Source: Xestospongia muta (lineage: Eukaryota; Porifera; Demospongiae; Haplosclerida; Petrosiidae). From it: a stretch of 64,000 nucleotides of DNA. The notes under the pieces were generated by a model that saw nothing but the letters and a program-made list of their open reading frames with translations, was not told the origin of the DNA and ran no database searches. Positions 2,821 to 64,000 of this stretch are shown here, one piece after another. The translations under genes and the position numbers were made by a program. Each line of letters begins with the position of its first letter. Position 1 is the first letter of the stretch. Location of the stretch: the NCBI GenBank assembly GCA_963693285.1, contig OY848928.1:1550501-1614500 (forward strand), read 5' to 3'.

Positions 2821-5800
2821 GTGAGTATACTGTAGTTAAAATTGTGACCTTACCTTGATGAAATAATCATTTGTATAGTTAATTAATCATTGCGTAACTA
2901 TTGTAGTACATACACTGTAAAAATTACTATGTTATATATTTTAATAACTAATTTGTACTTTACATGGGTGAATTACTATGGAATCTAGAATTTATGTGAA
3001 TTACTCACTATATAATTTGCAGATATGTAAACATACAACATATCTATAATTCTATAACGAGTAATGCACAAGAAATCTATATTTCATAGTAACCCACCCA
3101 TGTAAAGTACAAAATAGTTGTTAAAATGACATAGTAGTTTTTACAGTGTACATCAGCATTTCTATAGATCATATCCAGCACCAAGTACATGTATAAAAAG
3201 TACTCGTGTTTGATCCATGCCATAATTTTCAAAGTGAATGGCAAAGAAGACTACTTCACTGTGTTTGTGTTTAATATGATTGGCCTGCTTTAAGTTTAAA
3301 GGACTGGTTTGTCGCATTTTGGACCTATATCATAATCATCCTATATCATTTTACAAAGACCCATAGCTAATGTTTATTAACTCATGCCACTCTCAGTGTG
3401 AATGAGGTTTATAGTACTTGCTCTGTGCATGCGTTTGCATCTGTTTGTCTGTCACTAGCCAATGCACTACAAACTACTCTAACTTGACAATGACAACATT
3501 ATAGCTCCAAAAATCATAAACATTTAGCATTGTGAATTCATTTTAGCTAAACGGTGGCCAAAGAAAGGTAAATTTTTAAAAGTAAAATGACCTTTGCAGC
3601 CAAGATGGAAGAGTTGATTGCACAGAAAAACCTACTGTGTAATACCTACAAACTTGATGTGGGGATTTTCATTAAAAATTCTATCTATGGTTATGGCAAT
3701 TTTCAATGACCTTGACAAAATGTTTAGTTATCGGAATGTCAACAGTGACATTCTCTCCATGGAGAGTTTGACTGGATGTTTTTATTTGGGACAATCATTC
3801 CATGTTTTCTTAATTGCAGACATCTTTAGTTGATTATTTCAACTGCGCACTGCTAAGCTTTCAAGAAACCTCTCCCTATATAAAACAATATCAGTTGTAA
3901 AAGAGCCAACAAATGATCCTCAGTGGTAGAGACCAATGTGACCTTGCTTGGTTGTAAAGGTTGTTACTTGACTAGGTGCAACTTGAGTATGACTCAACTG
4001 AACCAGGTATTAAAGACATCCTTGTCTAGCATTGTAGTATGCTTTTACTAAGCAAGATCAGCCTAATACTGTAAGTTCTCTAACAAACTAGTGCTAAACT
4101 ATAGACAGTGATGTTACAAAGTAGCTCCTGACTTCTGTTATTTGAGATTGAATTTTGAGCAGCTCCATAGCTTCTCCAGTCTTCAAACTTACAAAAATCT
4201 AGTCCCTTACAGTAGCATTATGACAATATATATATATATATATATATATACCTGATTTGCTATAAATTTAACTAAATACTTTAGACTCCAATTCTTAGTT
4301 ACTAGCACAAAGGAAGGCACTAGACATACACATGATGGATATGATCTATTGTATAAAACATCTATGAACATAAATAAGGAATATAATAAATTTGTTATTT
4401 AGCATTTTTTATTTGTTATGGTTGCATTTAAAACATGATTATTAACTGTCTAATTGTATGCTCATTCATATGAGTTGTTATCACTTTTGTTATTTCTCTT
4501 TTCTCTACTACAATCATGTTATGATGACAATCTACTATGATAATAATGATTTCTATATATTTAGCCTGTAAGTATGAGCACAACACACATTAGTATTATG
4601 AATTGCTTAATTATACATTCATCATAAATCACTTTTTTCTTTTCTGTACTATGATCATACTATGATGATAACATATACTATATTTTTCTTGTTCAGCGAG
4701 TAAGTATGAACACACTCATTATTAGTCATTGTTTTTCTTTCTTTTCTTTATTATGATGATAACCAACACTGTATTCTACTTATTTAGCGAGTAAGTATGA
4801 ACACACATTAGTATTATGTATTCTTTGACAGTGTACCCATTTTTAATCCTTCTTTTGTCTTTTATGATCATTCTATGATGATAATTTATACTTATGTATT
4901 CAGGCAGTAAGTAAAACACATTTTAGTATTGTGCATTTTATATCATTGTATTTCTTTCTTTTCTCTTCTACGATCATTCTATGATGGTAACTTGTATTTT
5001 ACTTATTTAGTCAGTAAGTATATATACTACACATTAGTATTGTGCATTTTTTTAATTGAGCACCAACTATAAATTTTTTTCTCTTTTATCCACTATGATT
5101 ATATTATGATGATATCGTACACTGATCCCAATTTTTCAGTCAGTAAGTATACGTACACATTAGTATTATGTTTGTTTCCATTATGCATCTTTGTTTCTTT
5201 CTTTCCTTTATTATGACTATAATGAAAACCTACAACATATCCTGCATATTTAGGATGTAAGTATGAAGACGATATTAACAATTGTATATGCATTATCACT
5301 TATTGTTTTCACTCTCTTTTTCTACTATGATCATGCTATGATGATAATCTACACTATATTCTACTTATTTAGCGAGTAAGTATGAATTCACATTAGCATT
5401 TTTTATTGTTTAATTTCATAGCAATTGTTTTTCTTTCTTTTCTTTACTATGATCATTATATTATGATGACAACATACACAATATGTTTTACTTAATTAGC
5501 GAGTAAGTTTGACACAAATGAAATTAGTATTCTGTATTTATTTAATTGTGTGTGCATTATCATTCATTCTTTATCTTTCTATGATCATATCATGATGATA
5601 TCCTACAATATATTCCACTAATTTAGATTGTAAGTACAAGCACATAATTATTATTATTATGTAGTGTTTAATTTTGTATACATTATTAATCATTTTTTTT
5701 CTTGTTTGTCTCACTTTGATCATATTATGATGACATCCTACACTGTATCCCACTTATTCAGTCTGTAAGTATGGACACACATTAGTATTATGTATTGTTT

Positions 5801-8800
5801 AATTGTGTATACATTATTAATAATGGTTTTTCTCTCTTTTATCTACTATGACCGTACCATGATGATAACCTATACTTTTCTGCTTTTTAGCGAGTAAGTA
5901 TGGACACACATTTGTATTATGTATTGTTAAATTTGTACCCGACATTAATCGAAGTTCTTTTTTTTTCAATTATGATTTATATGATGATAATCCTACATCC
6001 TGTATCCCATCTATTTAGCCTGTAAGTATGATTACACATACACCAGTATATATTATGTATTGCTTTGATTATCTATTATTTATTCACTGTTTTTTTCTTT
6101 CTTCTTTCTACTATGATATACTATGATGATACATTGCATTGTATCCCACTTATTTAGCCTGTAAGTATGAACACACAGAGGTGTTATGCATTGTTTAATT
6201 ATGTATTTATAGTAAATTAATGTTTTCTCTTTTTCTCACTTTATATGATCATACTATGATGGTTATATCCCACTTATTCAGCTTGTAAGTATGAAGACCA
6301 ATTAATTATTATTTAGTGTGTACTGATTGAATAATATTAAATTATTGTTTTCTCTTTTTTCTTTCCATTATGATTGTATTATGGTGGTCATTCACATTGT
6401 ATTCTACTTATTCAGCGAGTAAGTATAAACACACAGTAAAAATTCATGAAATGTAGGGATAACAGCCTAAACATCTGACCTCAGTAGGAATGATAGTAAA
6501 ACATCCCCACATCGTAGCCCCACAGTAGATTGATTGACACTATACATCTATAGGGCCTTACGTTATGGGTACTATGTAGGGAATTTTATACTGCCATTCA
6601 TATTGTAGTCTTAATAATTGTTTTTTAAAGTATGTACTTGTTTGTGTTGTCTTTTTAAATTGACAACAAATCTTTTTATAATAATATTTCTATCATTTAA
6701 ATGTATACATGAGTAATTGAGTATCTAGACTAGCTTAGTATTCTGAAATAGTGTCCAATTATAGATCCTGCTTTTTATTTGAGATTACAGTTATTCTCTC
6801 CTTAGAAGAGAAATATGTTCCAGAAAACACAGGAAATGTTTGATCAAGATCAGTGCACATTGTAGGATAGATAGATACTAACTATCTTTTGTTTTCCTCC
6901 TTGTGAAAAATATATAGTAGATATGCTGTGACTAGACTCCCAGGAGAAAAATGAATGCATAATTAATATATTTAGGTTTAAAAGTTTACACACTAGAGTA
7001 TACTCTTAATTTTACATTGAACTATTATGCTTTCTGCCAGTACTATAGACATAATTAATCATTAATTAAATGTAAATAAATGGCTTCTATCAGTGAGACT
7101 GCTTTCCAAGCTCTGCAAAATCACTACTTTCATTGTTGAGATACTTGAAATAAGACATCTAAAAATGGACACCTCATGTACAAACAAAATGTTCTGTGTA
7201 AAAATAGTCATCAATAGCATTCTAGTTTTATAAGCATCATGTAGCAAACAGAAGAAACATTGTGCCGTCCCTACTTAGTCAATCCTATTACTTGCCTGAT
7301 AACATATTGTTTAATTATGTATTCTTTATAATTCTTACTGTTTGCTTTTTTTTCCTAACTATATGATGGTTTTTCACATATCCTACTTATTCAGCCTGTA
7401 AGTATGAACATACATTAGTATTATGTATATTGTTTTATCAAGTATTCAATAAAAATCATTTTCTCTTTTTTTTCTCTGCTATGATCATATTATGATGATG
7501 ACTCTCTTTGTATTTTACTTATTTAGCGAGTAAGTATAAACACATATTAGTATATTATAAATTCTTTAATTATGTACCAATTTATTATTAATTGTTTTTT
7601 TTCTTTCTTTAATTGGTTTCTCTCTTTTATCTCTACTATGATCAAATTATGATTATAATTCATTTTGTCGTCAATTTATTTAGCGAGTAAGTATAAAGTA
7701 TAAACACTTATTATTATATTATTAATTATTTAATTGTGTACTAACATATTATTAATTGTTTTTCTTTATTGCTATACTATGATCATACTATGATGTAACC
7801 TACCCTGTATTCTACTTATTTAGCTAGTAAGTATGTACACTATTAATTGTTTAATACTTATTGTGTATCAATTATTAATTGTTGTTCTGTCTGGCATACA
7901 CTGCATGCCAGACAGTCATAAGATTGTATTGGGTCATGTGATATATAATATATTTGAATGTCCACCTATTTCTTGTATGTTATGACAAATAAATTTTATC
8001 TGCATAAAAGGAAATTCCTAATATCTCATTGAAGTATTGTACTTCTTGTGCTATACAAATAACCACTGCCTTTTACAAATATATACTTTTTCTTTCTCTA
8101 TGATCATCCAATGATGGTAAATTATTCTCTTCTTATTCAGTTGGTAAGTATTAACACACATTATGTATAAGAATGACATATTGTTTAATCTTTATTTGTT
8201 ATTAATTTGTTTATCATCATTCTCTGCTATTATGTAATATTAATAACCTACATTGTATTCTACTAGTTCAGCCTATAAATATGAGCACACACCAGTTTTG
8301 TTTTATTCATCTGCAATATAATACCAAACATTACTTCATGTTCATGGTTATTGGTATTGCATGACATAAATAACTTATGACAGAGATACTGAAGTATATA
8401 ATAATATATTACAAATACATTAAATATCTTAGACTGTGTACATACTGACACTGGCAGATTTTTAATAAATAGTATAAATAAACCAATGTGTTGTTTGGTC
8501 ATTGTACATGATACTGCATACATGATGATAATTATGATTCCTACAATAATTATAAATTGTATTGTATTTTAAAATATCTATCTCTCATTTCTATATAGAG
8601 TAGAGAAATCAGTGCTGAAGAAGGTAGGAAGGTTCTTTATCAATTAAATATTCCATAGTCATTTATTTATCATTACAAAAAGTACCAGATGGTTTGCCTT
8701 AGCAATAATCATATGTGTGTATGAATTAATCACTGTCAAAAGTGATGAATGAGTTTACTTAACTACCAACCTTTGCTATATATATATATATATCTCTAAC

Positions 8801-11800
8801 TGACCAAGAAATGTTATTTTTTTGCTCTGTTTTTGTATTATGAAATTACATCCGCCCATTTACACTTAAATATATTAATTATAATTTTATAGATGTTGAA
8901 TATCGAAAAGCTCTAGCTGAAGGAGAAATGGATGTAGCATATGCCAGACTTATGTTTCTAGGAGCAGCTGGTGTTGGAAAGACGAGCTTTAAAAGATCAC
9001 TCATGAAAGAACGTTGGAATCCTTGCATTGATAGCACCATTGTCTCTGATGTCCATTCTCTGCGACCAATTGGACGAGAGTGGCAATCATTAGGTGATGA
9101 AGTTGAGGAGAAGTGGAGAGAAGTCACAGAAGACGATGAGCTGAATGAGATGGCAGAATTACTGGCTGCTGTACATCAAAACATATCAGGCATTAATGAG
9201 TTTAGTAGCAAAGTAATTGCTGCTACCAAGTTGTTTCCAGATTCTCACATGCTAGAAAGCACTATGATTTCAGAAGAAAAGGTTGAAGAAATTGAGAAAT
9301 CTCATGTTCGATCTGTTCTCTCAGAAGCTATTGCTCGTGCTAGTTCTATACCCATGAGCTCAGCAAGAAATATTAAACCACAACCTTTTCTTCATATTTG
9401 GGATTGTGGGGGTCAGCCTATTTTTCTAGAAATTCTCCCAGCATTTCTCACATCTCGTACTATGTTTCTTCTCCTGTATGATGCCTCTAAGAGTTTTAAG
9501 GAAAAGTGGCAAGCTGTACAGACTATACAAGGAGAGAGAAGGGTTGAAGAAGAAGTAAGCATCACCACAATTGATCTTCTTCTTAATTGGCTGTCCAATA
9601 TTCACATTCATCTCACAAAATATGATGAAAAGGGAGCACTCTTAAATTATCCTCGTGTACTATGCATTGGTACACATGGTGACAAGCTGAAAGCTATGGG
9701 CCAAGCTCATGATCAAAAGATACGAGAATTAGAGTCATATTGCCAAGGAAAACCATTTGAAGTTCTTATTGATGGTTTTCACATTGTTGATAATACCACT
9801 GCTGGGAGAGGGATTGGTGAAGATGTCAATTTCTCTAAAGTGCGAAGAGCCATACGTGATTTCACCTACAAAAAGCTTATTGTCAAAACACCAATTAGCT
9901 GGGTACTCTTCCGTAAAGTCATTCAAGTTCTCAAAGCAAATGTTATTAGTCTTGAAGAAGCTCATGCCATTGGTATTGCATGCAAAATACCCAGTGATGT
10001 TGTTCCCAAAGTACTCCTTTTTTACCACGACTTAGGAGTGCTCTTGTTCTACCCTCACATCATTGGTTTAGAAAATGTAGTCATTCTCAGTCCCAGATGG
10101 TTTGTGAATGCTCTTGGGAAAGTGTTAACACTAAAAGGAAGAGAAGACCATAAAACACGACTTATGTGGGACATATTACGCAAGAAGGGTATACTTGTCC
10201 AACCTCTCTATGTAGCTGCCTGGAGAGAAATTGAAGGGGTTGATCCAGAGTCATTGATTAATTTATTGGTTTGCTTTCGACTTGCTGCTGAAGTGAAGAC
10301 AGATCAATTTTATGATCCCAGTGTGAAGCAATACTTTTTGCCTTTAGTATTGCCTTCAGTTAAGGAACCATCAGTTTCACCAGGATACCGTCAAACAGCT
10401 ACTCCTTTGCATCTCACATTTAGAACTGAGTTTGTACCACCAGGTTTTTTCACTCGTTTTATTACAACAATTGCAGAATCACCATTATGTGAAATCAACT
10501 TTGATAAAGGAGTATATCGCAATCGAATAAATATTGAATTTGGAAATCCACCAATTGATGAGGTAATTTTAAGTGAGCTACCTCATGCTATTCAAGTTGA
10601 TGTCCATCGATATGCACCTGAAAGTGATGGTCTTGACAAGCTTACTCATGTCTGCCAAGAATTGTGTAGTTTTGTTAAGGAAGTAGCTAAAGAAGTTGAC
10701 AAATGTTTGTTTGCGAATGAAGGTAATGAAAATGACATCGATGACAGAGACATGCCTGGCAGGGTATTCAAAGAAGTTCGTTTTGTATGTGCTGCACCAG
10801 AGTGTCAGTCTACTTCATGTTGTCATTATTTAAAGCACAAAAAAGGCCAGACCTGTGATTTGTACTTACGTTGTGAAAACAGTAATGAGTATCGTGAAGT
10901 TTTACCTGAAGAAGGCCTCTGGTTTCCTGACAAGAGTACTGCATTAAAGGTCAGTGCTACTTGTATATAATAATAACTAAAGTCATTTCATAATTATAGA
11001 AAACTACCTCATTGCAGCAAAAAGAGATGCTAGATATTAGCAAAAAGATTTCAAACCAAGAGAAATTATTTGAGCTTGCAGCATGTTTGGAAATGACGCA
11101 AAATCTTAATGTCATTCTTCAAGATCCTTCTAAACACAAACGAGCTGGTTTTGAACTATTATATGAGTGGGTAAATAATAAAGGAGGTGTACGTGATGAA
11201 ATGGTGAAAATTCTGCAAGCTATAGATCTACCACAACTTGCTGAAATGTAAGATATTTTGTTATAAGGAACAACAATAATGTCTTTTAAATCTAATTAAG
11301 GGTAAAGGAAGCTGAGTATGATCCTGGGAAGTTAGGCAATAAGAGAAATCAACAAATGGTTAGTTCTAAAATACATCAGATTTCTTTATTTGTAGTTATT
11401 ATACAGGGTCACCCAAAACCATTGGTAAATCCAATAACTATACTACCTCTCAGTTCTGAACCTACCATTTCTGAATCTACTACTCCTCAGTCTCCACCCA
11501 CAATAATACCTACAACTACCTTAATATCTGATGTTGATCTTTTACGATGTACTCGTCATATTCATGGAAATATATCAATCCTTGCTGGCTCTCTTGGTAT
11601 CTCTTCTGCAAATCTACAGGAGATAAAACATGACTATGAAGAAATGGAGACACAAGCATACTGGGTATTAAAGAAATGGAAAGAATTTGTTTCAAGTAAT
11701 GCTCAACATCAAGAACTTCATGACAAACTCCGAGTTTTAGGATTTAATAATGCTGCTGAAAGGTATCATTGTTTATGCATGAACAATAAAATTATCATTT

Positions 11801-11923
11801 ATTATCTATAGTTTGATGAATCCTGACATGCAACCATCACCATCACCATCACCATCACCACCGCCACCATCACCACCACCATCACCATCACCACCACCAC
11901 CAAGTAGATGTGTTGTTTTGTGA
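2791..11923 (+). CDS. Gene A: Roc-COR GTPase with tandem death domains and CVVL CaaX tail (spliced)
   Basis: Complete gene. Coding exons: 2791-2820 (MAYRQDRNHI), 21 three-base exons 4565-8143, 8599-8623, 8893-10949, 11000-11247, 11301-11358, 11407-11762 and 11812-11923. All exon phases join cleanly (0, 0, 1, 0, 2, 0, 2), giving about 982 aa with every microexon, 961 without. Order: variable Arg/Pro-rich N-terminus, Roc GTPase, COR, Cys-rich module, death domain 1, linker, death domain 2, Pro/Ser tail, CVVL. Roco proteins are known GTPases whose COR domain dimerises; death domains recruit signalling partners. The function here, probably intracellular stress or immune signalling at a membrane, is inference. 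The start ATG lies in an exon (2776-2820) whose acceptor and GTGAGT donor are shared by all paralogues. Confidence 0.75.
2913..3148. mobile_element. MITE with long terminal inverted repeats, TA target duplication
   Basis: The ends CACTGTAAAAATTACTATG and its near reverse complement are inverted over about 65 bp each side, and TA flanks both ends (2911-2912, 3149-3150). The paralogous site in gene B (around 22552-22566) lacks the element and has a single TA. This is a non-autonomous element of about 236 bp with no coding capacity, of the kind mobilised by Tc1/mariner-like transposases (inferred from the TA duplication). It inserted in intron 2 of gene A after the A/B duplication. Confidence 0.8.
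4226..4250. repeat. (AT)n microsatellite
   Basis: Uninterrupted AT dinucleotide run in the intron before the gene A array. The gene B equivalent at 23627-23660 is longer and interrupted. Confidence 0.95.
4565..8143 (+). other. Gene A array of 21 single-codon microexons
   Basis: Tandem diverged units, each with ...TTYAG, three bases, GTAAGT. Codons by start position: 4565 CCT Pro, 4697 CGA Arg, 4788 CGA Arg, 4904 GCA Ala, 5011 TCA Ser, 5140 TCA Ser, 5254 GAT Asp, 5373 CGA Arg, 5500 CGA Arg, 5627 ATT Ile, 5762 TCT Ser, 5891 CGA Arg, 6019 CCT Pro, 6158 CCT Pro, 6282 CTT Leu, 6416 CGA Arg, 7395 CCT Pro, 7527 CGA Arg, 7684 CGA Arg, 7824 CTA Leu, 8141 TTG Leu. A 22nd unit (CCT at 8272) has lost its donor (ATAAAT). 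Introns are mostly 88-154 nt, except for a non-repeat spacer (about 6430-7370) and a hairpin-bearing stretch (7830-8100). The array lies between two exons that both meet it in phase 0, so each exon adds exactly one residue. That the sites are spliced is inference; the pattern is seen directly. Confidence 0.75.
7887..7915 (+). other. Conserved intronic hairpin in the gene A array
   Basis: Perfect 11-bp inverted repeat CTGTCTGGCAT / ATGCCAGACAG with a 7-nt loop, in the long intron between the last two intact microexons (7824, 8141). Gene B has it at 27316-27344 with one stem mismatch, and gene E has a weaker version at 63273-63299 in a similar long intron. The role is unknown; an RNA structure bridging this longer intron is possible. 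Confidence 0.6.
8599..8623 (+). CDS. Gene A 25-nt exon (SREISAEE plus split codon)
   Basis: Acceptor TATATAG at 8592-8598, 25 nt reading S-R-E-I-S-A-E-E and the first base of an Asp codon, donor GTAGGA. The paralogues have exons of identical length and phase: 28030-28054 (TRKISAEE), 39052-39076 (VKKNNAVE), 47661-47685 (TKIKSAIE), and 17186-17210 in the pseudogene. Entry in phase 0 is what makes the upstream three-base exons read as whole codons. Confidence 0.75.
8893..10949 (+). CDS. Gene A Roc-COR exon
   Basis: A single 2057-nt exon: acceptor TTTTATAG before 8893, donor GTCAGT after AAG at 10949. Positions counted from the internal Met at 8929: Walker A GAAGVGKTS at 12-20, G3 DCGGQ at 159-163, and a G4-like THGDK at 249-253. 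These are Roc GTPase signatures. A COR domain follows (about 320-570, including VLLFYPHIIGLENVVILSP and the LHLTFRTEFVPPGFFTR stretch). A Cys/His cluster (about 621-649, C-x4-C-x4-CCH...C-x6-C) is a possible zinc site. The sequence between G1 and G3 is long for a small GTPase but normal for a Roc with inserts. Retention of the downstream intron would end the protein after V-S-A-T-C-I. Confidence 0.9.
11000..11923 (+). CDS. Gene A C-terminal exons: death domain 1, linker, death domain 2, Pro/Ser tail, CVVL
   Basis: Exons 11000-11247 (death-domain-like helices, KLFELAACLEMTQ...YEWVNNKGG), 11301-11358 (linker, K-E-A-E-Y-D-P...), 11407-11762 (Ser/Pro/Thr spacer, then death domain 2 with the ILAGSLGIS and YWVLKKW motifs), 11812-11923 (tail). 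The tail is a proline/serine run encoded by CCA/TCA/CCG codons and ends R-C-V-V-L-stop; Cys codon at 11909-11911. CVVL fits a CaaX box with Leu last, which established prenyltransferase rules assign to geranylgeranylation. The low-complexity DNA is therefore probably coding here. Confidence 0.7.
11838..11902 (+). repeat. CCA/TCA trinucleotide repeat in the gene A tail exon
   Basis: Imperfect (CCATCA)n and (CCA)n tract. Read in the frame fixed by the splice junction it gives an uninterrupted Pro/Ser stretch upstream of the CaaX box. Genes B, C and D lack this expansion and have ordinary short Ser/Pro-rich tails. Confidence 0.9.
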
Positions 11924-13235: not shown

Positions 13236-14669
13236 CTATTTTTCGAAAAGACCTTCCACACGGACAGGGATAATCATTATTTCTATCAGTTTTATTGGCT
13301 GCACAATCATTTGCCTTCCTACGCTGACTTTTAATACCTTCATCACAAGATTTTCGTCACAAGGATCGATCCTGTGCAAGATCATACCATCCATCATCCT
13401 ACCCCAATTGCTTGCAAGTCTAGCTTTACTCCATCTCGCCACCTGTTCTTTCTTCCATGGCATGGCCTTTTCTTCGCTACCTCTCCAAATAACAGCTTCT
13501 TTGGTAATACATTTTAGGTGGCCAAGCCATCTAAGACGGTGTGCCATCAGTATGTCTTCAATTGGTTCCTCCATACCAAAAGTAGATCCAAGCTGTTTAG
13601 AAGTGATTCAATCTCTCCACTGTTGGTACTTTGTCACTCCGAGTATGGTCCTTACACATTGGTTATGGAATGATCTCAGTCACCTTACATGCTCAGCTTT
13701 AACTGTCCACGTTTCTGCTCCATACAACAAAACTGACATAACTACACCACAGTAAAGGGCTTTTTTGTTGGCACTGATAAGTTAGGGTTGTGAAAAATGG
13801 TTTCTTCCAGCATCCAAATGCTCTTGCAGCTTTGGCAATTCTACTTGCTATTTCTAAGGAAAGACTTTTACCATTTCTATTGAACCATTTTCCATCTGTA
13901 GTGATTCAACATCCTTGTCATCTAGATTTGCTCTCACAACCATTCCTTTAGTTTTCTCAATGTTCACCATCATCCCCCAATCTTTCACTGTGTGCACAAG
14001 CTCCATAGCTGATTGTTCCAAGGTCTCACGAGATGATGCATATGTAGCAGTATCATCAGCAAACTGGGATTCAGTCACATTCACATTACTCAGGCGTGAC
14101 TTTGCCATTCTATCTCCCACCAGTTTTCTTCCTTGCTTAAAGTTAACATTCACTCCTGCTGATGGGCATCAATTCCTCCAGTTGGCAACTACAGCACTGT
14201 AGTATGTGTTAAATAGGGTAGGGGCCAGAGTTCACCCTTGTTTTAGCCCATTCTTCACTTCAATGCTATCTGTGGATGATTTACCCGTTTGCGCATCTGC
14301 CCGCATGCCATCATGGAATGACTTTACGACTTCAAGCATAGTTGGAGGCACTCCAGTCTTTCCCATCACTTTCCACAGGGCATCCCTAGGAACTGAGTCG
14401 TACGCCTTTTTCAGATCAACAAACAAAATGAACATTACATCATCATGCTCACGAATTTTCTTCACCAGCTGCCTTTCTGCAAAAATTATGTCAGCGCACC
14501 CACAACTCCTCCTGAACCCACACTGAGAGTTTGGTAAAAAGGTTTCAGCTATAATTTGGGGCATTTCCTGGATTATTCTTGCAAATATCTTACCAACCAC
14601 ATCAAGAAGACTAATACCTCGCCAATTATCACAGGATTGTACAATCTCAGCATTCTTCCAGTCATTCAC
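13236..14669 (-). pseudogene. Reverse transcriptase relic of the LINE
   Basis: Broken frames. 14232-14669 carries the N-terminal RT part (NWRGISLLDVVGKIFARII, CGFRRSCGCADIIFAERQL, FVDLKKAYDSVPRDALW). 13854-14153 carries the FADD catalytic motif (QFADDTATYA) and the following E-K-T-K block. 13236-13574 carries the C-terminal RLRWLGHL motif. Frame changes separate them, so no active enzyme can be made. Confidence 0.85.
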
Positions 14670-15694
14670 AACCTTCCTCTCCTCCTACACTTCTCTCATT
14701 AGCTCAAGTATTCTGTCAAACAACTCAGCTTCTCCATAGGCAATTAGTTCAGGAGGAATTCCAGTCTTTCCACCCGCTTTTCCTTTCTTGAGCTTGCCAA
14801 GTGCTGTCACTAGTTCTTCTTCTGTTGGTGGATCATCAAGGTCTAATCTTGTTGGTTGTCATGTCATGCTATCCACTATGTGCTTGCAAAACTCACTAGA
14901 AATGTTTAAAATCTTTGAAAAATGTGTTTTCCATCATGATCTAACCTCTTCAGGACTCTTCATGAGCTCACCATCTTCCTTCAGTATTGCTTTTGTTCTG
15001 CTTGGTCTCCTTCCAGTATGAACCATCTGAAGCTTCCTAATGCTCTGCCATCTGGTTTGTCCATCCTTCACAGCCTACTTTCCTGCTTGTGCTGTTCTTC
15101 TTATCCACTCCTCTTTCGCCCTATCCATGGTCACTTTCACTAGTTTTTGGTGTCTATGAAACTCTTTATGGCTGGCAATGTACTTGATTAGATCATCTGA
15201 TTGCGTGTTTTGTTTTTGCCATCTATCAATGGCTGGAGGGTGTCAATGCTCTCCAAGAACCAGTCAGGTTGAGATTTCTTTGCTTGTCCTACTGTCTCCT
15301 CCCCAGCTATCAAAATACAGCTCTTTAATGTCTCTCAATTTTGCTCAGCTTTATCTCAGAGTCATGTGGTGCTGCCAATAGTTTCTCTGTCAAGTTCTCT
15401 CTGTAATCATCCCTAAAAGCTGAATTTCGCAACAGATAAGTTACAAAGGGTACAGTTGGCTTCCCTTTGTCCCTTGGTGAGAAGATGGTTTTGATCCACA
15501 ACTGACCTCTTACCATTTGAGGTCTGACCAGCATTTGGTGTCCCTTATGACTCTCACATCTGTACAAAACATTCTTTGTCCTTCTCTCCAAACTACAAAA
15601 TCAATTATGTGATGTTTCTTCATAGCAGGGTGCACCCAGGTACCTAGGTGGATCTCCTTCTTCTGAAACCATGTATTCGTGGTTGTGAACTAAT

Positions 15695-17185: not shown

Positions 17186-18995
17186 GCCAAAAAATTCAAT
17201 ACTGTGGAAGGTAAGGTTCTACATTAATTGAATATTAATTTTTGGTAGTTATTATTCATTAACCCTCATTACAAGAGTTATAGCAATTGCTAAATGTTGC
17301 TTTAAGTCAGCAACTACAGAGTATCATGCTACAAAATTTGACATGGAAACTGTAAAAGTTCAACATTATGAATTTGTCCTAGCTAAATGGCTACCAATTG
17401 CAAAAATAGGAAGCTTAAAAGTCACAAAATTATTTAAAAAAACAGACAGAGGATGAAAGAGTTGATTACTTCAATGTTATAAATATGACATCGTTGTTCT
17501 TTCATATTTTATAAAACTGTAATTTTCTTTGTCTTACCTTAAAAAAATTGAATATTAATTATACTTTTATAGATGTTGTATATCGAAAAGCTCTAGCTGA
17601 AGAAGAGATGGATGTAGCATATTGCTAGACTTATGTTTCTAGGAGCAGCTAGTGTTGGAAAGACAAGCCTCAAATGATTGCTTATGAAAGAGCCTAATAA
17701 CTCTCATATTAACAGTAATATTATCTCTGATATCCATTTTTGAGACCAATTTGATGAGAGTGGCAAACACTAGGTCGTGAAGATGAGGAGAAACGGATAG
17801 AAATCACAGAAGATGAGCTGACTGAAATAGCAGAATTACTGGCTGCTGCACATCAAAACAGAACTAACTTGAATGAGTTTAGTAGTAAAGTTATTGCTGC
17901 TACCAAGATTTTTCCATATTCGTGTATGCTAAAGACCTCTTCAATTTCAGAAGAAAAAGTTGAAAAATTTGAGAAATCTTATGTTCAATCTGTTCTCTCA
18001 GAAGTATTGCTCATGCTAATTCTATACCCAGGAGCTCAGCAAAAAATATTACACCACAATTATTTCTTCATGTTTAGGATTGTGACAGTCAATTTATTTT
18101 TCTAGAAATTCTCTCAGCCTTTCCAACCTCTCATACTATGTTCCTTCTCCTGTGTGATGTAATTTGGCTGTGAAATATTCATATTCATCTCACAGATTAT
18201 GATGAGAAGGGAACACTTTTAAATTATCCTCGTGTACTATGATGCATTGGTACACATGGTACACATGGCCACAAGCTACGGGCCTAACATATGACCAAAA
18301 GATACAAGAAATTTAATCATATTGCCAAGGAAAACCATTTGAAGTTCTTATTGATGATTTTCACATTGTAGATAACATGACTGCTGGGACTGGTGAAGGT
18401 GAAGATGCCAATTTCTTTAAAGTGCAAAGTGCAATACTTCATTAAGCTACAACAAGCTCATTTTCAAAACACCAATTAGCTGGGTAATCTTTCGTACACT
18501 CAAAGCGAATATTATTTTTCTGAAGAAGCTCACGCCATTGGTATAGCAGCAAATACCCAGCAATGTTGTTCCCAAAGTACTTCTTTTTCACCATGATTTA
18601 GGGGTGCTCTTGTTCTACCCTCATATTGCTGGTCTAGAAAATGTAGTGATTCTCAGTCCCAGATGGTTTGTGGGAGCTCTTAGGAAGGTGTTAACAAGGA
18701 AGAGAAGACCACAAAATGTGACTTGTGTGGGACATATTAACTGCTTGGAGAGATATTTGAAGGGTTTGATCCAGAGTCTTTGATTAATTTATTTGTTTGC
18801 TTTCGCCTTGCTGCTGAAGTAAAGACAGATCAATTTTATGATCCCAATGTAAAGCAGTACTTAGTATTGCCTTTAGTTATAGAAGCATCAATTTCATCAG
18901 GATGCTTTCAAAGAACTACCCCTTTGCATCTCACATAAAGAAATGAGTTTGTGCCACCAGGATTTTTTACTTGTTTTATTACAACAATTGCAGAG
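17186..18995 (+). pseudogene. Roc-COR pseudogene (25-nt exon plus degraded large exon)
   Basis: The 25-nt exon is intact (17186-17210; A-K-K-F-N-T-V-E plus G, donor GTAAGG). The large exon starts at 17573 after TTTTATAG. It has a one-base insertion near 17624, a P-loop in which Gly became Ser (GAASVGKTS), a stop at 17675-17677, many further indels, and stops homologous with the paralogues at about 18995 within COR. No death-domain exons follow. Similarity is closest by eye to gene D (for example VQSVLSE, CMLK). Confidence 0.85.
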
Positions 18996-19099
18996 AATTA
19001 AAACTAATTATGATGATATGGTATTTGTATATAATTTGTATATACTTATCACATTGAACAGTTATTCATTATGTACGTCTCTTCTCAGATGTCTGACCT

Positions 19100-48300: not shown

Positions 48301-50938
48301 CTCATCGATTTCAAAAGAAAAAGTTGAAGAATTTGAAAAATCTCATGTTCAATCTGTTCTTTCAGAAGCTATTGCTCGTGCTAATTCTATACCTTTGAGC
48401 TCAACAAGAAATGTTAAACCACAACCATTTCTTCATATTTGGGATTGTGGAGGTCAGCCTATTTTTCTAGAAATTCTCCCAGCCTTCCTTACCTCTCGTA
48501 CTATGTTCCTTCTCCTATATGACGCATCTAAGAGTTTCGAGGAAAAATGGCAGTCTGTACAGACAGTACAAGGAGAGAGAAGGGTTGAAGAAGAAGTTAG
48601 CATCACAACAATTGATCTACTTTTCAATTGGCTGTCCAATATTCACATCCATCTCACAAAATATGATGAAAAGGGAGCACTCTTAAATTATCCTCGTGTA
48701 CTATGCATTGGTACACATGGTGACAAGCTCAAGGCTATGGGCCAAACATATGACCAAAAGATACAAGAAATTGAGTCATATTGCAAAGGAAAACCATTTG
48801 AAGTTCTTATTGATGGTTTTCATATTGTTGATAATACCACTGCTGGGAGTGGTGAAGGTGAAGATGTCAATTTCTCTAAAGTACGAAGTGCAATACGTGA
48901 TTTCACCTACAACAAGCTCATTGTCAAAACACCAATTAGCTGGGTACTCTTCCGTAAAGTCATTCAAGCTCTCAAAGCAAATGTTATTAGTCTTGAAGAA
49001 GCTCATGCCATTGGTATAGCATGCAAAATACCCAGTGATGTTGTTCCCAAAGTACTCCTTTTTTACCATGACTTAGGAGTGCTCTTGTTCTACCCTCACA
49101 TCATTGGTCTAGAAAATGTAGTGATTCTCAGTCCCAAATGGTTTGTCGAAGTTCTTGGTAAGGTGTTAACATTAAAAGGAAGAGAAGACCATAAAACAAG
49201 GCTTATGTGGGATTTATTACGTAACAAGGGAATACTTGTCCAACCTCTTTATGTAGCTGCCTGGAGAGAAGTTGAAGGCCTTGATCCAGAGTCATTGATT
49301 AATTTATTGGTTTGCTTTCGCCTTGCTGGTAAGGTGAAGACAGATCAATTTTATGATCGCAGTGTAAAACAATACTTTTTACCTTTAGTATTGCCTTCAG
49401 TCAAGGTAGCATCAATTTCACAAGAATACCGTCAAAGAGCTACACCATTGCATCTCACATTTAGAACTGAGTTTGTACCACCAGGTTTTTTCACTCGTTT
49501 TATTACGACAATTGCAGAATCACCATTATGTGAGGTAAACTTCAGTAAAGGAGTATATCGCAATCAAATAAATATTGAATTTGGAGACCCACCAATTGAC
49601 GAAGTAGTTTTAAGTGAGTTACTACATGCTATTCAAGTTGATGTCCGTCGATACGCACCTGAAAGTGATGATCTCGACAAGTTTACTCATGTTTGCCAAA
49701 AATTACATAGTTTTATTAAGGAAGTAGCTATAGAAGTTGACAAGTGTCTGTTTGCGAGTGAGGGTAGTAATAATGATATTGATGATGGTGATGAGTCTGG
49801 TAAAGTATTTAAAGAAGTTCAGTTTGTATGTGCTGCACCAGAGTGTCAGTCTACTTCATGTTGTCATTATTTAAAGCACAAGAAAGGCCAGACCTGCGAT
49901 CTATATTTACGTTGTGAAAATAATGACAAGCATCGAAAGGTTTTACCTGAAGAAGGCTTCTGGTTTCCTGACAACACCACTGCATTGAAGGTGATTATTA
50001 CTTGTATATATATGAACATATAATATTGTTATGATTATAGAAAACCACCAAATTGCTGGAAAAAGAGATGTTAGATATTAGCAAAAAGATTCCAAACCAA
50101 GAGAAATTATTTGAGCTTGCTGCACATTTGGAAATGACACAAAATTTTAACATCATTCTTCAAGATCCTTCTAAGCAGAAAAGAGCTGGCTTTGAACTAT
50201 TGTATGATTGGGTAAATAATAAAGGAGGTGTACGTGATGAAATGGTTGAAGTCCTTCAAGAAATAGATCTACCACAACTTGCTGAAATGTAAGACGTTTT
50301 GTTATAAGAAATAATAATGTTTTAAAATCAAATTTAGGGTAAAAGAAGCTGAGTATGATTCTGAGAAATTAGGCAAAAAAGGTCATCTAAGAAAGGTTAG
50401 TTCTACTTAAGACATGTCAGTTATCTTTACTTATATCTTTTACACAGAGTCACCAAAAACCAATGGTCAACCCGAACATTGTATTACCTACTTGTTCTGG
50501 ATCTTCTGTCCCTCAGTCTCCTGCACCAATAATCACACCTACTACTCTGATATCTGATGTTGATCTTATGCAATGTACTCTTCATATTCATGACAATGTA
50601 TTGCGTCTTGCTGGTTATCTCGGTATCACATCTACAAGTCTAGAAGAGATTAAAAGTGAGTATGGAGAAGTAGAGATACAAGCATATTGGGTATTGAAGA
50701 AATGGCAAGAAAACAACACAAGCAATGCTCATCAAGATTATCTTCATAATGTGCTACAAACGTTGGGATTTCACAAAGCCGCTGAAAGGTATCTTGTATC
50801 TTTGCTTATTAGACATATAATATATTGTTGTTTTGAATTAGATTGATGAGTCCTGAACTGCCACCACCAAGTGAAAGTCAACTGCCAAATGAAAGTCTAC
50901 CATCAAGTACAAATCTATGGAAATGCCTTGTTCAGTGA
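44869..50938 (+). CDS. Gene D: Roc-COR GTPase with tandem death domains and CLVQ CaaX tail (spliced)
   Basis: Coding exons: 44869-44886 (MAQRQD; exon begins 44854), ten microexons 45962-47223, 47661-47685, 47934-49990, 50041-50288, 50338-50395, 50448-50788, 50842-50938. About 959 aa. It is the most diverged of the complete copies but has the same exon lengths (25, 2057, 248, 58) and phases. The linker reads G-K-K-G-H-L-R-K, less basic than in B and C. The tail ends W-K-C-L-V-Q. Donor of the large exon is GTGATT, weaker than the paralogues' GTCAGT, so read-through into the intron stop may be commoner. Confidence 0.75.
45307..45336. repeat. (AT)n microsatellite
   Basis: AT dinucleotide run in the intron before the gene D array. 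Confidence 0.95.
45962..47223 (+). other. Gene D array of ten in-frame microexons, one of 9 nt
   Basis: Codons: 45962 GAT Asp, 46055 CAA Gln, 46187 TTG Leu, 46429 TCA Ser, 46548-46556 GTACCAGTG Val-Pro-Val, 46698 CGA Arg, 46824 ATG Met, 46966 CGA Arg, 47101 TTG Leu (donor GTATGT), 47221 TCG Ser. Two units are dead: 45827 (CAT followed by TAAGT, GT lost) and 46305 (TCG followed by GAAAGT). The single longer exon is 9 nt, again a multiple of three. Unit structure and phase match the other genes, but the array is shorter and less regular. Confidence 0.7.
47661..47685 (+). CDS. Gene D 25-nt exon (TKIKSAIE plus split codon)
   Basis: Acceptor TTTTTATAG, donor GTAAGG, phase 0 in, phase 1 out, as in all copies. 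Confidence 0.75.
47934..49990 (+). CDS. Gene D Roc-COR exon
   Basis: 2057 nt. GAAGVGKTS, DCGGQ and THGDK are intact. Distinct residues include CEDEEKWREV, NKTSLIEFSKK, SPKWFVEVLGK and SISQEYRQR. The Cys-rich module is conserved (CAAPECQSTSCCHYLKHKKG). It begins D-V-A-Y-K-K-A-L-A-E-G-E before the internal Met, differing from D-V-E-Y-R-K in A-C. Confidence 0.9.
50041..50938 (+). CDS. Gene D C-terminal exons: two death domains and CLVQ tail
   Basis: Exons 50041-50288 (death domain 1), 50338-50395 (linker), 50448-50788 (short Ser/Pro spacer then death domain 2, VLRLAGYLGITS and YWVLKKW), 50842-50938 (Ser/Pro-rich tail, W-K-C-L-V-Q-stop; Cys codon at 50924-50926). CaaX with Gln last, as in B and C. 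Confidence 0.75.
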
Positions 50939-51859: not shown

Positions 51860-54300
51860 CTAATTATTATCCAATTAAAGACAGCACAGAGATCAGTCAA
51901 CCATCATCAAGCGAAACACAACTATGCCGCTGGATCTTTTACAGTTTTTGTAGCATTGTTAATAATCTTGGTAACAAATCTGATTAGATGCTAGTCATAT
52001 GATTTAACTAAACAGTTTTGACTCCAGTTATGCATATAGGTATATATTAGTGGTTATTTATACAGTAGAAGTTATACATTGACTGCATATAGTTATTGTT
52101 CATTGTTTAGAGGGCTAGGATCAGTTTAATACACAAGGAAATATGGACTTCCTGCCAGACCTATAGGTACTATATAGTTTGCATGTTCATTAACATGATT
52201 TTGAAGCATTCTGGTGTTGCCATAGTAATCTCGGTGCATGGAATAATCCACAAGCCAAAAGAGGAGTGCACTAGTTTGTACCTCAATCACTACGGCACCA
52301 TAATTCATATGAAACCATAAAGTATAGGGTAAATATATATTTGTGTCACCTTGAGAAAGTTTATGTCTTGTCTTAAGAAAGTCTAACTTTGTCACAAATA
52401 GATCTGGTATGAGAGTATTCTATTAAACAGCCTTTATAACTCAAACTTTGCAATATATACAAACTTGTATTTAAATATTTCTTAATTGCTAACATTACAT
52501 ACTACATGATGGATATGATCTATTGTATATAAATTAGTTTAAGTAAAAATCATTTTTGAAGTAATCCAAGTTCTTTAAGTATAAAGTAAATTTCTTATTT
52601 GTATTATCTGTTAAGCTAGGCTGAATCTAAAATAGAATTGTTTTAGTAAGAAAATATATATTTAGTTATTGCTTTTGTTCTTGTGTGGTGGAAGAATAAT
52701 TCTTGCTTTAGTTTTTGAGATGGTTAAAACCTTTTTTTAGTTTTAGTTATAGTTTACTTAATGTAATACAGTATTAGTTCCTGTTCATTTCACACATGTG
52801 CTAGAGTTTTAGTTTTAGTTATAGATCATTTTAGTTTGTCCCATATCACTTTACTTTTCATTACAAACCTTTTCTTTTTCACATAGTCTTTCTTTTCTAA
52901 ACAATAAAACTCCTTCTTTTGATACAATAAAGTTCCTAAAGTTTAGTACCAGTTTTAGTTTTAATTTAATGAATATAACTTACAAAATGGGTTTCAGTTA
53001 TAGTTTTGATTAACTAAAACAACTCTAATTTAAACACAGTCCAATTGCATCTTCATTCAGTATATTAATAAACTTTTGTCATCCATTATCAATCATTCAA
53101 TTATTACTTTTCTGTTTTTTCTACTGTGACTATCCTATGATGATAGCTTATAGTTTACATTACAATATGTAAGTATGAACACACTTAACATTGTGTATTG
53201 TTTAATTATGTATATCTATAATTATTATTATTCATTGTCTTTTTCTCTTTTTTCTGCTATGATCATATACCATACTGTAATAAAAAATTTATGATGTATT
53301 CTATTTATTTAGGATGTAAGTAAAAACACACTTTACTGTTGTCATTGATTTTCTTTCTTTTCTTTACTATGATCATATTATGCTATGATGATAAATTTAT
53401 GATGTATTCTATTTATTCAGGATGTAAATAAAAACACACATTACTGTTGTGATTGATTTTCTTTCTTTTCTTTACTATGATCATATTGTGATGATCACTT
53501 ACACTTTATTTAGCAAGTAAGTATGAACACACATTAGTATCAAATTGTTTAATTATGTATTCATTATAAATCATTGTTTTTCTTTCTCTTCTTTAATATG
53601 TTCATATTATGATGATAATGTACATTATATTTAGCAAATAAGTATGAACATACATTATTATTATGTATTATTGTTTAATTGTACATGTGTATTCATTGTA
53701 AATCATTGTTTTTTCTTTCTTTTTCTGCTATGATCACACTGTGATGGTAACTTATATTTTATTTATTTAGCAAGTAAGTATGAACACACATTAGTTTAAT
53801 AGATTTTTAATTATGCATAAATAATATTAATCTTTGTTTTTCTTTGTTTTCTCTAATATAACTCACACTATATATCATTGTAATTCATGCTTTATTATTC
53901 AGTTGATAAGTATAAGCACACATTAGTTTATTGTTTCTGTGTATGTATTAGTTGTTTTTTTAATTCTCTACCTACAATGATATTATAATGATAATTTCTT
54001 GGCAAGTTTACTCATATCTGCCAAAAATTGTGTAATTTAGTTAAGGAAGAAAGATGTTGACAAATGTCTATTTCCCTGTTATGATATTAATTACAATGAT
54101 GAGTCTGGTAAAGTATTCAAAAAAATTTGTGTATGTCCTGCACCAGAGTGTCAGGCTACTTCAGGTTGTCATTATTTAAAGTACAAGAAAGGTCAGACCT
54201 GTGATCTATATCTACGTTGTAAAAACAGTGATGAACATAGCAAACTTTTACTTAAAGAAGGCCTCTGGTTTCCTGACAAAAGCATTGCATATATAATCTA
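51860..54300 (+). pseudogene. Relic sixth copy: intron, decayed microexon array and end of the Roc-COR exon
   Basis: 51860-52650 is similar to the gene E intron (60710-61480). The array part has GAT (53313), GAT (53421, donor GTAAAT), CAA (53514) and CAA (53771) with both sites kept, and decayed units at 53167, 53635 (donor ATAAGT) and 53903 (ATAAGT). From about 54001 the sequence jumps into the Roc-COR exon near codon 570 (counted from the internal Met), with KFTHICQKLC and the Cys-rich module, ends near 54297 and has frame breaks. A deletion removed everything between an array unit and the exon. Confidence 0.8.
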
Positions 54301-60127: not shown

Positions 60128-63100
60128 ATGGCTCAAAGACAAGAAGACGTGAGTAACACTGTAGTTAAAATTACGAGATTGTCATGAAGTGATAGTGTAA
60201 CTATTCAATATTAACATTCAAAATCATATGAATTAATATTTGTAAATTGAAAAACTGACCTGTGTAACTGATCCATGCTATATTTTGTAATGTGTGTAGT
60301 GAACTACTTGCTGTGTTAGTGTTTATATACTATTGGCCTGCTTTACTGTTGGTAGAACAATTATAAAGTTAGTTATATAGTTGCTATGAAAATTAACAAA
60401 ACAGAGATATAGCACCAGATAGCCTTTCTGTTGTAAATAATTTATAGAATATATCACCACAAATACTATTCCTGACAATGTTCATACCTACTAGTATTTT
60501 GCGCAGCTGTATCATATATAATAAGATGTATTTGAAGACAACCTTGACTTATTAGTGAGCATAAGAGTGATTGGCCATTATTGCATGATTGAAACACATA
60601 TTTTCACTCAAAAATAACCTTGCTGCACTAAGGGAAACAAACAGTACACAGAAACAAAAACTAAGACATGAATCTGGCAACTATTGGTTTGAGCTAACAA
60701 CAACAAGTATGACAACAACAAATGTACTATTTTCTGACAATTAAAATACCCAATTATTATCAAATTGAAAACAGCACTGAGATCGGTAAACCATCATCAA
60801 GTGAAGCACAACTCTGCCACTGCGTCTTTTATAGTCTATGTTGTGTTGCTAATAACCTTGGTAATGAATTTGATTGGTTGTTAGTCATGTGACAAATAAA
60901 CACTTTTGACTCCAGTTATGCATGTAGGTAGGTATATAGTAGTAGTTATTTAAACAGCAAAAAGTGATATGTTGACTGAGTTAATGATCAGGAATTAAGG
61001 GGCTAGGATCAGGTTAATACACAAGGAGATATGGACTCCCTGCCATGCCTATAGGTAGTCTGTAGTTGTATATCCCATTAAGCGATTTTGAAGCAATTTG
61101 ATGCTGCCATAGTATCTCTAGTGTGTGGAATAATGCACAAGCCAAAGGGGAGTGCATTATTTGATTACTATGATGCCATAAATCTTATATAACCCTAAAT
61201 TATAGGGTTAATATACATTTTATGTCACCTTGACAAAGACATTCTTAAATTAAGAAGGTCTAACAATACATCAAATAGATCTGGTATGAGAGTATTCTAT
61301 TGAACAGCCTTTATGCCTCAAATCTTGCAATATATACTTAACTAAATATTTCTTAATTGCTAGTATTACATACTACATGATGGATATAATCTATTGTATA
61401 TAAATATGTTTAACAAAAAATCATTTTTGAAATAATTCAACTTCTTTAAGTATATAAATTAAATATGTTATTTGTATTATCTGTTAAATGAGCATGTGTC
61501 AGATATAATGCACTCTACGCGGATTCTCGATCACTATAAAAGGGGAGTGAGCTGCCCCAGAATGAAGTGATGCCTACCAAAGAGTGAAATGGCGGCAATA
61601 TTCAAACCTAGATGTCGTTCTAGATAGTAGTCATACCAACTTGAACAACCCAGGCAAAACATCTATAATAGTTGTAATAGTTAGCTCTAGGTACAAACAC
61701 GTGTTATCTCAATTACACAGTTGATAATAATAGGTAACAACTTTTATTGCTGTACTGCACTTATTATACATGGCAGAATCAAAGATGGCTGACATAAGAC
61801 CATAGTTGTCTAAATCAGATTGCTTAGCAGGAGTTAGAACTTCTCTAACATAGTCCAACCTTCTCTTGAAGACATTCTTCCCCTCTAGACTGTCAAAGTC
61901 GATCACAAGAGAAAGTCTTACATGTTTTCTACTGTTCGCCATTTCACTACTTACACGTATCCAAAAAAAACGGGAATATCTGCACTGAACATACACATAA
62001 TATTAATTAAGCAGCTGTTGCAACAGCTACAGGAAGTGCATATTATGATGTTAACAGGAAAAAAACAGTTTCCATTTTTTAATATTGAAATATTTTGTGT
62101 GTGCCATTTTGTGGGCAACCCAGCCCCCTTTTATACTGCGCATTTATTTTTTCTTTTCTCTACTATTCATATTATGATGATAAATTATACTGTATTTAGC
62201 GAGTAAGTATGAACACATTAGTATTATGTATTGTTTAATTGTGTATTTATTGTAAATCCTTGTTTCTCTTTCTTTACTATGATCATGCTATAATGGTAAC
62301 CTACACTGTATTTAGCGAGTAAGTATAAACACATATTAGTATTATGTATTTTTAATATGTAATCATTGTAAATCATTGTTTCTTTCTTTTCTCTAATATG
62401 ATCATACTATATGATTGTAACTTGTATTCTACTTATTTAGCGTGTAAGTATTAACACACATTAGTTTATTATAATCTTTAATTATGTATATACAATATTA
62501 ATTATTATTTTTCTTTCTTTTCTCTAATATAATCATACTATCATTATGGTAACTTGTGCTTTATTTATTCAGTTGGTAAGTATAACCAAATACATGTTTT
62601 TTTTGTCTCTATGTATGTATTTATTGTTTTACTTTCTTTTAATCCTTTACTATGATCATGTTATGATGATAACTTATACATTACTTATTTAGTCGGTAAG
62701 TATTATATTTAGCATTATATGTATTTAAATTGTGTGCCTATTATTAATCATTGTTTTATCTATCTATACTATGATCCTGTGATGGTAATTCATATTGTAT
62801 TTTTTTGCTTAGTATATAAGCATGAACACATATTAGTATTATGTATTGTTTAATAGTGTATACTCATTATAAATCATTGTTTTTCTTTCTTTTCTCTACT
62901 ATGGTGTCATACTATATGATAATACTTTGTACTGTATTTTACATATTTAGCGAGTAAGTATAAACAAACATTAATATTACGCATTGTTTAATTACTGGTA
63001 TCATTACCATTATTAATCATTCCTTTTTCTTTACCTATGATAATAATGTGATAATAACTTGACTCATTCAGTCAGTAAGTATAAACATACATCATTATGT

Positions 63101-64000
63101 ATTGTAAATTATGTTAATCATTGTTTTTGTCTCTTCTCTCTACTATGATTACTTTATGATGATACTTGGACTGTATTTTACTAATTTAGCAAGTAAGTAC
63201 ACATATCAGTGTTATATATTGTTTAATTAATCATATGTGTACAGTTATTAAAGATTGATTATAGTTTAATAACCTGGCACACACAGCATTTATACCAGGC
63301 AGTCTTATAATCATTATTGACTAATGGTGTGTGCATATTTGTATATATTATTTTATACGTTATGTCCATTCACTTTGTTCTATCCCTTTTGTTAAAATAT
63401 AAAGCAATGAATAAAAATTAACTGCACATCGCCAACACATTTTCAATTGTAATCTTGTACTTATTTTTACATGATGTTTAATTGTGTATGCATTGTTAAT
63501 GATTTGTTTTCCTTTCTTTCCTCTCTCTTTATGATGATAACCAACACTGTATTCTACCTATTTAGCGAGTAAGTATGAACATAGATTAGTATAATGTATT
63601 GTTTTGTGTACTTATCATAAATCAATATATTTTCTTTCTTTACATATATATGATCATACCATGATGATAACTTATACTTTATTTATTTAGTTGGTAAGTA
63701 TGCAATGCATGCATTAGTATTGTTTTTAGTTTAATGATAACTTATACTTTATTTATAATTACATATTTACTTGGTAAATATATTAGTATTATATGGTATT
63801 TATATAATTGTGCACCAATTACTGTAATCATTGTTTTATCTACTATGATAATAATGTGATGGTCATTGGCATTGTATTCTATTTACTTAACATTCAAGGT
63901 TATTGACATTGCATGAGAGAAATAAACTCTGACATAGAGTATATACACGTCCCAGATACAATGAAAAATATCTTTGTCTCTGTACATCCTGACATTGACA
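60128..64000 (+). CDS. Gene E: fifth family member, 5' part only (runs off the window)
   Basis: Start exon 60128-60148 (MAQRQED; exon begins 60113 after TTTTTTTAG; donor GTGAGT; phase 0) followed by the array. The 25-nt, Roc-COR and death-domain exons are expected beyond 64000. By its start exon and promoter it groups with gene D. Whether it is intact cannot be judged here. Confidence 0.6.
61480..62150 (-). other. Insert in the gene E intron with an antisense open frame
   Basis: A minus-strand frame (61709-61942 from M-A-N-S-R-K-H-V-R-L-S-L) of about 78 codons reads like a real protein (F-K-R-R-L-D-Y-V-R-E-V-L) but I do not recognise it. The plus strand has a consensus TATA box (CTATAAAAGGGG, 61535-61546). 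The block is missing from the paralogous introns. It is possibly an inserted element or the first exon of an antisense gene. Confidence 0.3.
62200..63693 (+). other. Gene E array, ten intact single-codon microexons so far
   Basis: Codons: 62200 CGA Arg, 62316 CGA Arg, 62441 CGT Arg, 62573 TTG Leu, 62693 TCG Ser, 62951 CGA Arg, 63072 TCA Ser, 63190 CAA Gln, 63566 CGA Arg, 63691 TTG Leu. Dead units: 62813 (TAT, donor ATAAGC) and one near 63773 (no acceptor AG). A long intron (63193-63565) holds the weak CCTGG / CCAGG hairpin (63273-63299), matching the hairpin introns of A and B. The final CGA-hairpin-TTG order seen in B is similar, so the end of the array is recognisably homologous. Confidence 0.7.

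Follow-up and report, generated by a model that had tools for sequence, protein, structure and literature searches.

Exons of a single codon have been described as isolated cases: the rodent Ncam gene contains a 3-nt exon, a 3-nt exon of Drosophila TnT adds a lysine, and exons this short are hard to map from reads (PMC8042270, in excerpt). A constitutive 1-nt exon has also been reported, 3 nt having been the smallest alternatively spliced exon known before (PMC4674806, in excerpt). Schistosome micro-exon genes (MEGs) contain rows of tiny, symmetric, skippable exons and yield variable proteins (PMC4015677, in excerpt), while in Dscam1, for which an immune role has been proposed, duplicated exons form germline arrays (PMC5465998, in excerpt). 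Here, we analyzed a 64,000-nt stretch of the genome of the sponge Xestospongia muta (assembly GCA_963693285.1, contig OY848928.1, positions 1,550,501 to 1,614,500 of the forward strand; hereafter the window), in which five genes, A to E, carry arrays of tandem units with a 3′ and a 5′ splice site separated by exactly 3 nt. We predict that these 3-nt blocks are true exons that, spliced in frame, add up one residue at a time to a hypervariable segment at the N terminus of a Roc-COR-Death protein, a reading that we consider probable.

The likeness of the arrays to the isolated microexons of Ncam and TnT lies in one in-frame codon between ordinary splice sites. However, the latter are cited as single exons, whereas the sponge arrays hold from 8 to 61 or more in tandem, as duplicates of an intron plus a codon in which the codon has diversified. 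As in the schistosome MEGs, consecutive symmetric microexons appear to be present here, judging by sequence, with 8–21 per window gene and phase 0 on both sides. MEG exons, which reach 36 nt, are mostly longer than one codon and their proteins are mostly secreted, whereas here nearly every exon would be one codon and the product would be the N terminus of a Roc-COR-Death protein. Hypervariability at codon positions 1 and 2 is a further difference, and, while microexons make up to 75% of the coding sequence of a MEG, gene A has 21 array codons next to a Roc-COR exon of ~685 codons. Germline arrays of duplicated exons are likewise common to Dscam1 and the sponge genes, but the exons of Dscam are much larger and mutually exclusive, whereas each predicted sponge exon is a single codon and it is the intron that is repeated. 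Among the matches listed from open-licence PMC papers, none reported tandem arrays of single-codon exons, and one paper on Dysidea NLRs contains no mention of microexon, intron or splicing. The nearest known counterparts of the arrays are isolated 3-nt exons and schistosome MEGs.

The spacing of the splice motifs sets the arrays apart from the rest of the window. Specifically, the distance from TTYAG to the nearest GTAAGT on the (+) strand was 3 nt in 68 cases and 9 nt in one, with no other value between 0 and 60 nt, and on the (−) strand of the window no such pair was less than 30 nt apart. Dinucleotide-shuffled versions (n = 60) contained a mean of 0.05 gap-3 pairs and at most 1, compared with the 68 observed, and chance was rejected as the source of the spacing. 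With GTAAGTAT[GA] as the sole anchor, a YAG stood exactly 3 nt upstream at 57 of 60 window sites; among the other three, one reads 2 (within a 9-nt unit) and two have no YAG within 12 nt. The pattern YAG-N3-GTAAGT occurred at 75 sites, with 74 in arrays (A, 21; B, 21; C, 11; D, 8; E, 10; and 3 in a relict array at 53.3–53.8 kb) and one isolated at 19699. Readings of the type TAA/GTATGA reflect a 4-nt shift inside GTAAGTA and were not counted as units, and 9-nt units were excluded from all 3-nt statistics. The array units would thus qualify as microexons, being bounded by AG and GT and, if coding, a multiple of 3 nt in length. An initial annotation of this window had listed 77 intact units (21, 21, 15, 10 and 10 in A to E), all with TTYAG and GTAAGT. 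This total is reproducible if the 9-nt unit, one unit preceded by GAG and four with weaker 5′ splice sites (GTAAAC, GTAAAT, GTACAT and GTATGT) are admitted and the three relict units are left out, but the uniformity of the motifs was slightly overstated, since the exact GTAAGT is present in 73 of the 77 and TTYAG as well in 66. That none of the 77 is a stop codon was confirmed.

The same gap lengths bear on recursive splicing, under which the units would be ratchet points, the long intron would be removed stepwise and nothing would be left in the mRNA. In both cases the 3′ and 5′ sites nearly touch, and arrays of this type naturally entail the stepwise removal of a long intron. However, ratchet points are zero-nucleotide AG/GT junctions, whereas a gap of 0 is absent among the TTYAG/GTAAGT pairs of the window and a codon-like 3 nt is found instead; moreover, nearly all blocks lack an initial GT, and so cannot regenerate a 5′ splice site and drop out. 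We consider this explanation extremely improbable.

The exons on either side of the arrays define the frame in which the blocks would be read. In gene A, on the (+) strand, the start exon (2791–2820; MAYRQDRNHI, 30 nt) ends in phase 0 at the 5′ splice site GTGAGTAT and is followed by 21 predicted single-codon exons (4565–8143; PRRASSDRRISRPPLRPRRLL), spaced mostly 91–157 nt apart with two wider gaps of 979 and 317 nt. Downstream lie a 25-nt exon (8599–8623; SREISAEE plus 1 nt), the phase of which is forced by the Roc-COR exon, the Roc-COR exon itself (8893–10949; PF08477 and PF16095) and a Death domain region (11296–11811; PF00531) with approximate exon ends. The Roc, COR and Death domains, scanned for gene A alone, scored above the curated cut-off (PF08477, 40.3 bits; PF16095, 48.9 bits; PF00531, 32.6 bits). 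The start exons of genes A to E share an MA-x-RQ beginning, end in phase 0 and differ in length (30, 30, 27, 18 and 21 nt) by multiples of 3; by eye, they are hydrophilic (MAYRQD…, MAQRQ…). The 25-nt exon proved open in phase 0, again by eye, in all eight genes examined (A to H), and its one remaining base is used to complete the codon with which the Roc-COR exon begins. Because the start exons of A to E and the 25-nt exon are both in phase 0, a single codon between them can be read only as the three bases. Of the five tandem genes of the initial annotation, four have their Roc-COR exon inside the window, whereas E has only its start exon and array there, with its Roc-COR exon just beyond (C12:1614998). 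Genes A to E are part of a longer cluster that extends to both sides.

Arrays of this kind recur elsewhere in the genome. Across 158 Mb, TTYAGNNNGTAAGT matched 1637 times, compared with 284 matches for the reversed control (an excess of ~1350); the arrays described below are those that were read. The neighbouring arrays F (35 units) and H (40–41 units) are longer than those of the window, the array of gene G includes two 9-nt units, and a gene on C10 has a 23-unit array. Array C5a consists of 36–37 units of 182 nt with unrelated intron sequence and precedes a second Roc-COR family, which is ~55% identical in the Roc region. Array C5b has 61 single-codon units at ~120-nt spacing in an 8-kb piece of C5, on the (−) strand, and is cysteine-rich (TGT), with copied blocks reading HRPPC. 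Single-unit matches spread, with gaps, over C5:2.004–2.068 Mb, and the gene beyond the lower end of this interval resembles ZU5-bearing proteins; a link between this ZU5-like gene and C5b, 56 kb away, is likely. Pfam and PDB sequence searches gave no name for the gene after the C5b region, and one of 50 homologues (P0161) has PF00791, which we take to be ZU5. On C1 (C1:10682001–10702000, (−) strand), an array of ~97 units at ~200-nt spacing, also with unrelated introns, precedes the exons of an FN3 receptor-like gene, in which one FN3 domain was confirmed by Pfam; Ig-like and transmembrane exons were read from translations and had no Pfam match. Every array read points in the same direction as the nearest gene of this kind downstream of it. 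Thus, the same 3-nt architecture recurs with unrelated introns before a second Roc-COR family, apparently before a ZU5-like gene and, in decayed form, before an FN3 receptor-like gene. Separately, on the (+) strand of C1:17.33–18.34 Mb, a single TTTAG-ATT/ACT-GTAAGT recurs at spacings of mostly tens of kb, which may reflect a gene family whose members each have one true 3-nt microexon.

This recurrence is relevant to a possible origin as satellite DNA or as an amplified intron-like element, the consensus of which happens to hold both splice motifs. The units are tandem, homogenised and, at one locus, largely decayed, and the excess over the control is concentrated in clusters, which is consistent with a satellite. 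On the other hand, AG-N3-GTAAGT is common to arrays of unrelated introns that are oriented with genes and located upstream of those encoding signalling domains. Positions 1 and 2 of the block also stand out among all columns in four homogenised arrays, and the pooled depletion of stop codons, together with this codon-position pattern (both below), sets the arrays apart from a tandem repeat without coding constraint. We judge a satellite origin highly improbable.

Across all arrays except C1, with GTAAG[TA] as the sole anchor, the nearest YAG was 3 nt away in 279 of 290 cases; the other 11 comprised three 9-nt units, a unit in which the codon is CAG, a C5b unit with a 1-nt gap and six sites without a YAG within 12 nt. 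A tally by hidden Markov model (HMM), which gave 3 nt in 316 of 316 intact units, was set aside, as its fixed centre files other gaps as “broken,” a class that took in the 9-nt unit along with four others, scored 1, 2, 2 and 7 nt. The constancy of the 3-nt gap is supportive rather than decisive, because indels are also rare in the rest of the unit (mean of 0.7–5% per 3-column window).

Stop codons are absent from all 280 intact units of eleven arrays (C1 excluded), compared with 8.6 expected from randomly combined positions, which takes stop avoidance beyond the evidence of the initial annotation; arrays of NNT codons add almost nothing to this expectation. Genome-wide, TTYAG-TRA-GTAAGT accounted for 17 of the 1637 matches versus 28 of 284 in the reversed control (Fisher P ~2e−13, a value that, like the other P values given here, overstates independence because units are related by duplication, and is therefore indicative only, which weakens the case to this extent). 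None of the 17 TAA/TGA matches sits in an array that was read, and, in C5:2.00–2.79 Mb, 63 of the 65 TRN matches listed are sense codons by hand count.

The divergence among units points to the codon itself. When the 141–143 columns of the unit were ranked by variability, codon positions 1 and 2 came 3rd and 1st in F, 1st and 2nd in H, 1st and 3rd in C5a, and 2nd and 1st in C5b, respectively, with position 3 at ranks 54, 126, 16 and 40 in the same order. Nearest-neighbour units differed at 97 of 260 sites of positions 1 and 2, at 15 of 130 sites of position 3 and at 1055 of 16925 intron sites (6.2%; 6.1, 4.2, 8.6 and 5.9% in F, H, C5a and C5b, splice-site cores left out). An excess at positions 1 and 2 is the mark that amino acid diversification in phase 0 would be expected to leave, and it is not expected of splicing decoys or satellite DNA. 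The window arrays are too old for the pattern to be visible, so this argument rests on F, H, C5a and C5b, four young arrays outside the window. Position 3 is held at T in most units of three arrays (NNT in 32 of 35 in F, 40 of 40 in H and 53 of 61 in C5b), which makes them nearly all NNT and stop-free, like a designed peptide library.

An alternative accepts that the codons are translated but attributes their variability to mutation targeted to two bases instead of to selection. Consistent with such targeting, the units at C12:1540384 and C12:1541056 (CGT and TCT) differ at both codon positions despite 90 identical flanking bases, and, among pairs below 2% intron divergence, about 1 of 3 in F and about 1 of 11 in H already differ in their codon. 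In contrast, none of the 33 such pairs in C5b has changed, which speaks for gradual diversification plus block duplication over immediate hypermutation; block copies are visible in the final run of C5b, HRPPC-HRPPC-HRPC-HRP, and block duplication with selection explains these data. Targeted mutation therefore seems unlikely to us.

A further alternative regards the units as regulatory elements, or as decoys for splicing, within a long 5′ intron: the sites would be recognised but the blocks skipped, so that the start exon would be joined to the 25-nt exon, or transcripts would start downstream of the blocks. Steric difficulty in defining 3-nt exons is generally appreciated, and translation could begin at an ATG (GEMDVAY) that lies within the Roc-COR exon, close to its start, as in the models of the sponge Amphimedon queenslandica. 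However, decoys would need neither a 3-nt spacing, nor stop avoidance, nor an excess of changes at positions 1 and 2 over position 3, and the start exons are conserved and vary in length by multiples of 3. We regard this as quite unlikely. The reading as tandem single-codon exons, already proposed in the initial annotation, is supported at the sequence level by the frame, the recurrence, the stop depletion and the codon-position divergence.

Several observations nevertheless count against in-frame single-codon exons. (i) As to frame, G, H, C5a and C10 yielded no start exon (the C5a stretch begins inside its array), and the start exon of F is similar to those of A to E but its end cannot be fixed; the frame argument is thinner for these sister genes. 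In the C5 family, both a 16-nt exon (five codons plus 1 nt) and a recurrent 25-nt candidate fit phase 0 before Roc-COR. The gene after H lacks the first part of the Roc region and has a stop, so that array H may belong to a pseudogene. In A. queenslandica, the proteins that were read begin near the Roc domain, without a segment of this kind. (ii) As to spacing, the gap is 1 nt in one unit of C5b, and an inner AG in the three 9-nt units (D, one; G, two) would also allow each of these to be read as a 2-nt exon. (iii) As to stop codons, no single array is significantly stop-poor (the lowest of eleven permutation values is 0.088), and the array-rich part of C5 includes two TAG matches. In the C1 array, which looks decayed, 40 of 89 scored units are intact, 2 of these 40 are stops and several other gap lengths occur; a strict count gave 1 stop in 33, versus 3.7 expected. 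(iv) As to divergence, arrays A to E have no clear codon-position excess over their old, diverged introns, and A and B differ at 4 of 42 sites of positions 1 and 2 compared with 3.4% in the intron, too few to decide. Pooled position 3 slightly exceeds the intron (P = 0.03), and in C5a, the weakest of the four arrays, it differs in 10 of 30 pairs.

Most likely, the arrays arose by tandem duplication of intron-plus-codon units. If the blocks are exons, the introns, mostly 90–200 nt long, would be recognised by intron definition and removed successively, so that every splicing event would attach one further codon and bring the following 5′ splice site into play; in most window units this site is GTAAGTAT, which matches U1 in full. 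The segment would grow by duplication of blocks of units, its residues would be varied by diversifying selection or by mutation aimed at the codon, and it would likely serve as a variable recognition or decoy part of innate immune sensors. A role in innate immune or self-recognition sensors is suggested because the array precedes a Roc-COR-Death module in a large, clustered family, with 144 matches in the genome, fragments and distant members counted. The nearest named proteins are from A. queenslandica (~50% identity). By eye, introns of the units (e.g., 4630–4696) have a C/T-rich tract ~50–70 nt before the AG and a ATGATGATAAC-like motif in the interval, an arrangement that is unusual at 3′ splice sites.

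Since every unit is symmetric, any subset of codons keeps the frame, and constitutive inclusion and combinatorial skipping are both compatible with the arrays. A combinatorial peptide generator with one residue per exon, in which each transcript has its own subset of codons, is conceivable, and we put it forward tentatively, as less likely than not. If it operates, the N-terminal segments of a 21-unit gene could number up to ~two million, with far larger numbers for an array of 61 units in 8 kb, and innate immune sensors in an early animal branch would be diversified by a route not described before. If the codons are included at all, the lower limit of exon definition would be tested at scale, with dozens of 3-nt exons joined in order, and a receptor would be diversified codon by codon with little risk of frameshift or stop. 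Because read mapping copes poorly with such short exons, annotations of the affected proteins are probably wrong in this genome, and perhaps in other animals.

The other genes of the window are likewise on the (+) strand, and the ends of the Roc-COR exons of B, C and D are given by analogy with A. Gene B consists of a start exon (22436–22465; MAYRQDHNHI, 30 nt, phase 0), 21 putative single-codon exons (23974–27572; PRRASSDRRIPRPPPRPRQRL), a 25-nt exon (28030–28054; TRKISAEE plus 1 nt) and a Roc-COR exon (28315–30371). In gene C, a start exon (34959–34985; MARRQDDHI, 27 nt, phase 0) precedes an array (36896–38657) of 11 YAG/GTAAGT units (KPKPPKPPPPK), one unit with GAG in front and three units whose 5′ splice sites are weaker, followed by a 25-nt exon (39052–39076; VKKNNAVE plus 1 nt) and a Roc-COR exon (39146–41202). 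The start exon of gene D (44869–44886; MAQRQD, 18 nt, phase 0) is followed by an array (45962–47223) of eight candidate single-codon exons, one 9-nt exon (GTACCAGTG at 46548, with an inner CAG) and one GTATGT unit, then by a 25-nt exon (47661–47685; TKIKSAIE plus 1 nt) and a Roc-COR exon (47934–49990). The relict array (53313–53773, (+) strand), with three intact and several decayed units, has no recognisable gene of its own before the start exon of gene E (60128–60148; MAQRQED, 21 nt, phase 0), the array of which comprises 10 predicted single-codon exons (62200–63693; RRRLSRSQRL), with both the 25-nt and Roc-COR exons past the window.

Between genes A and B, fragments of Roc-COR pseudogenes with several stops occupy 17566–19510. 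On the (−) strand at 14232–14684, an open frame resembles, by eye, part of a reverse transcriptase of the type without long terminal repeats (non-LTR). Finally, a 214-bp repeat in three copies, 96% alike, lies between genes B and C (32671–33305).

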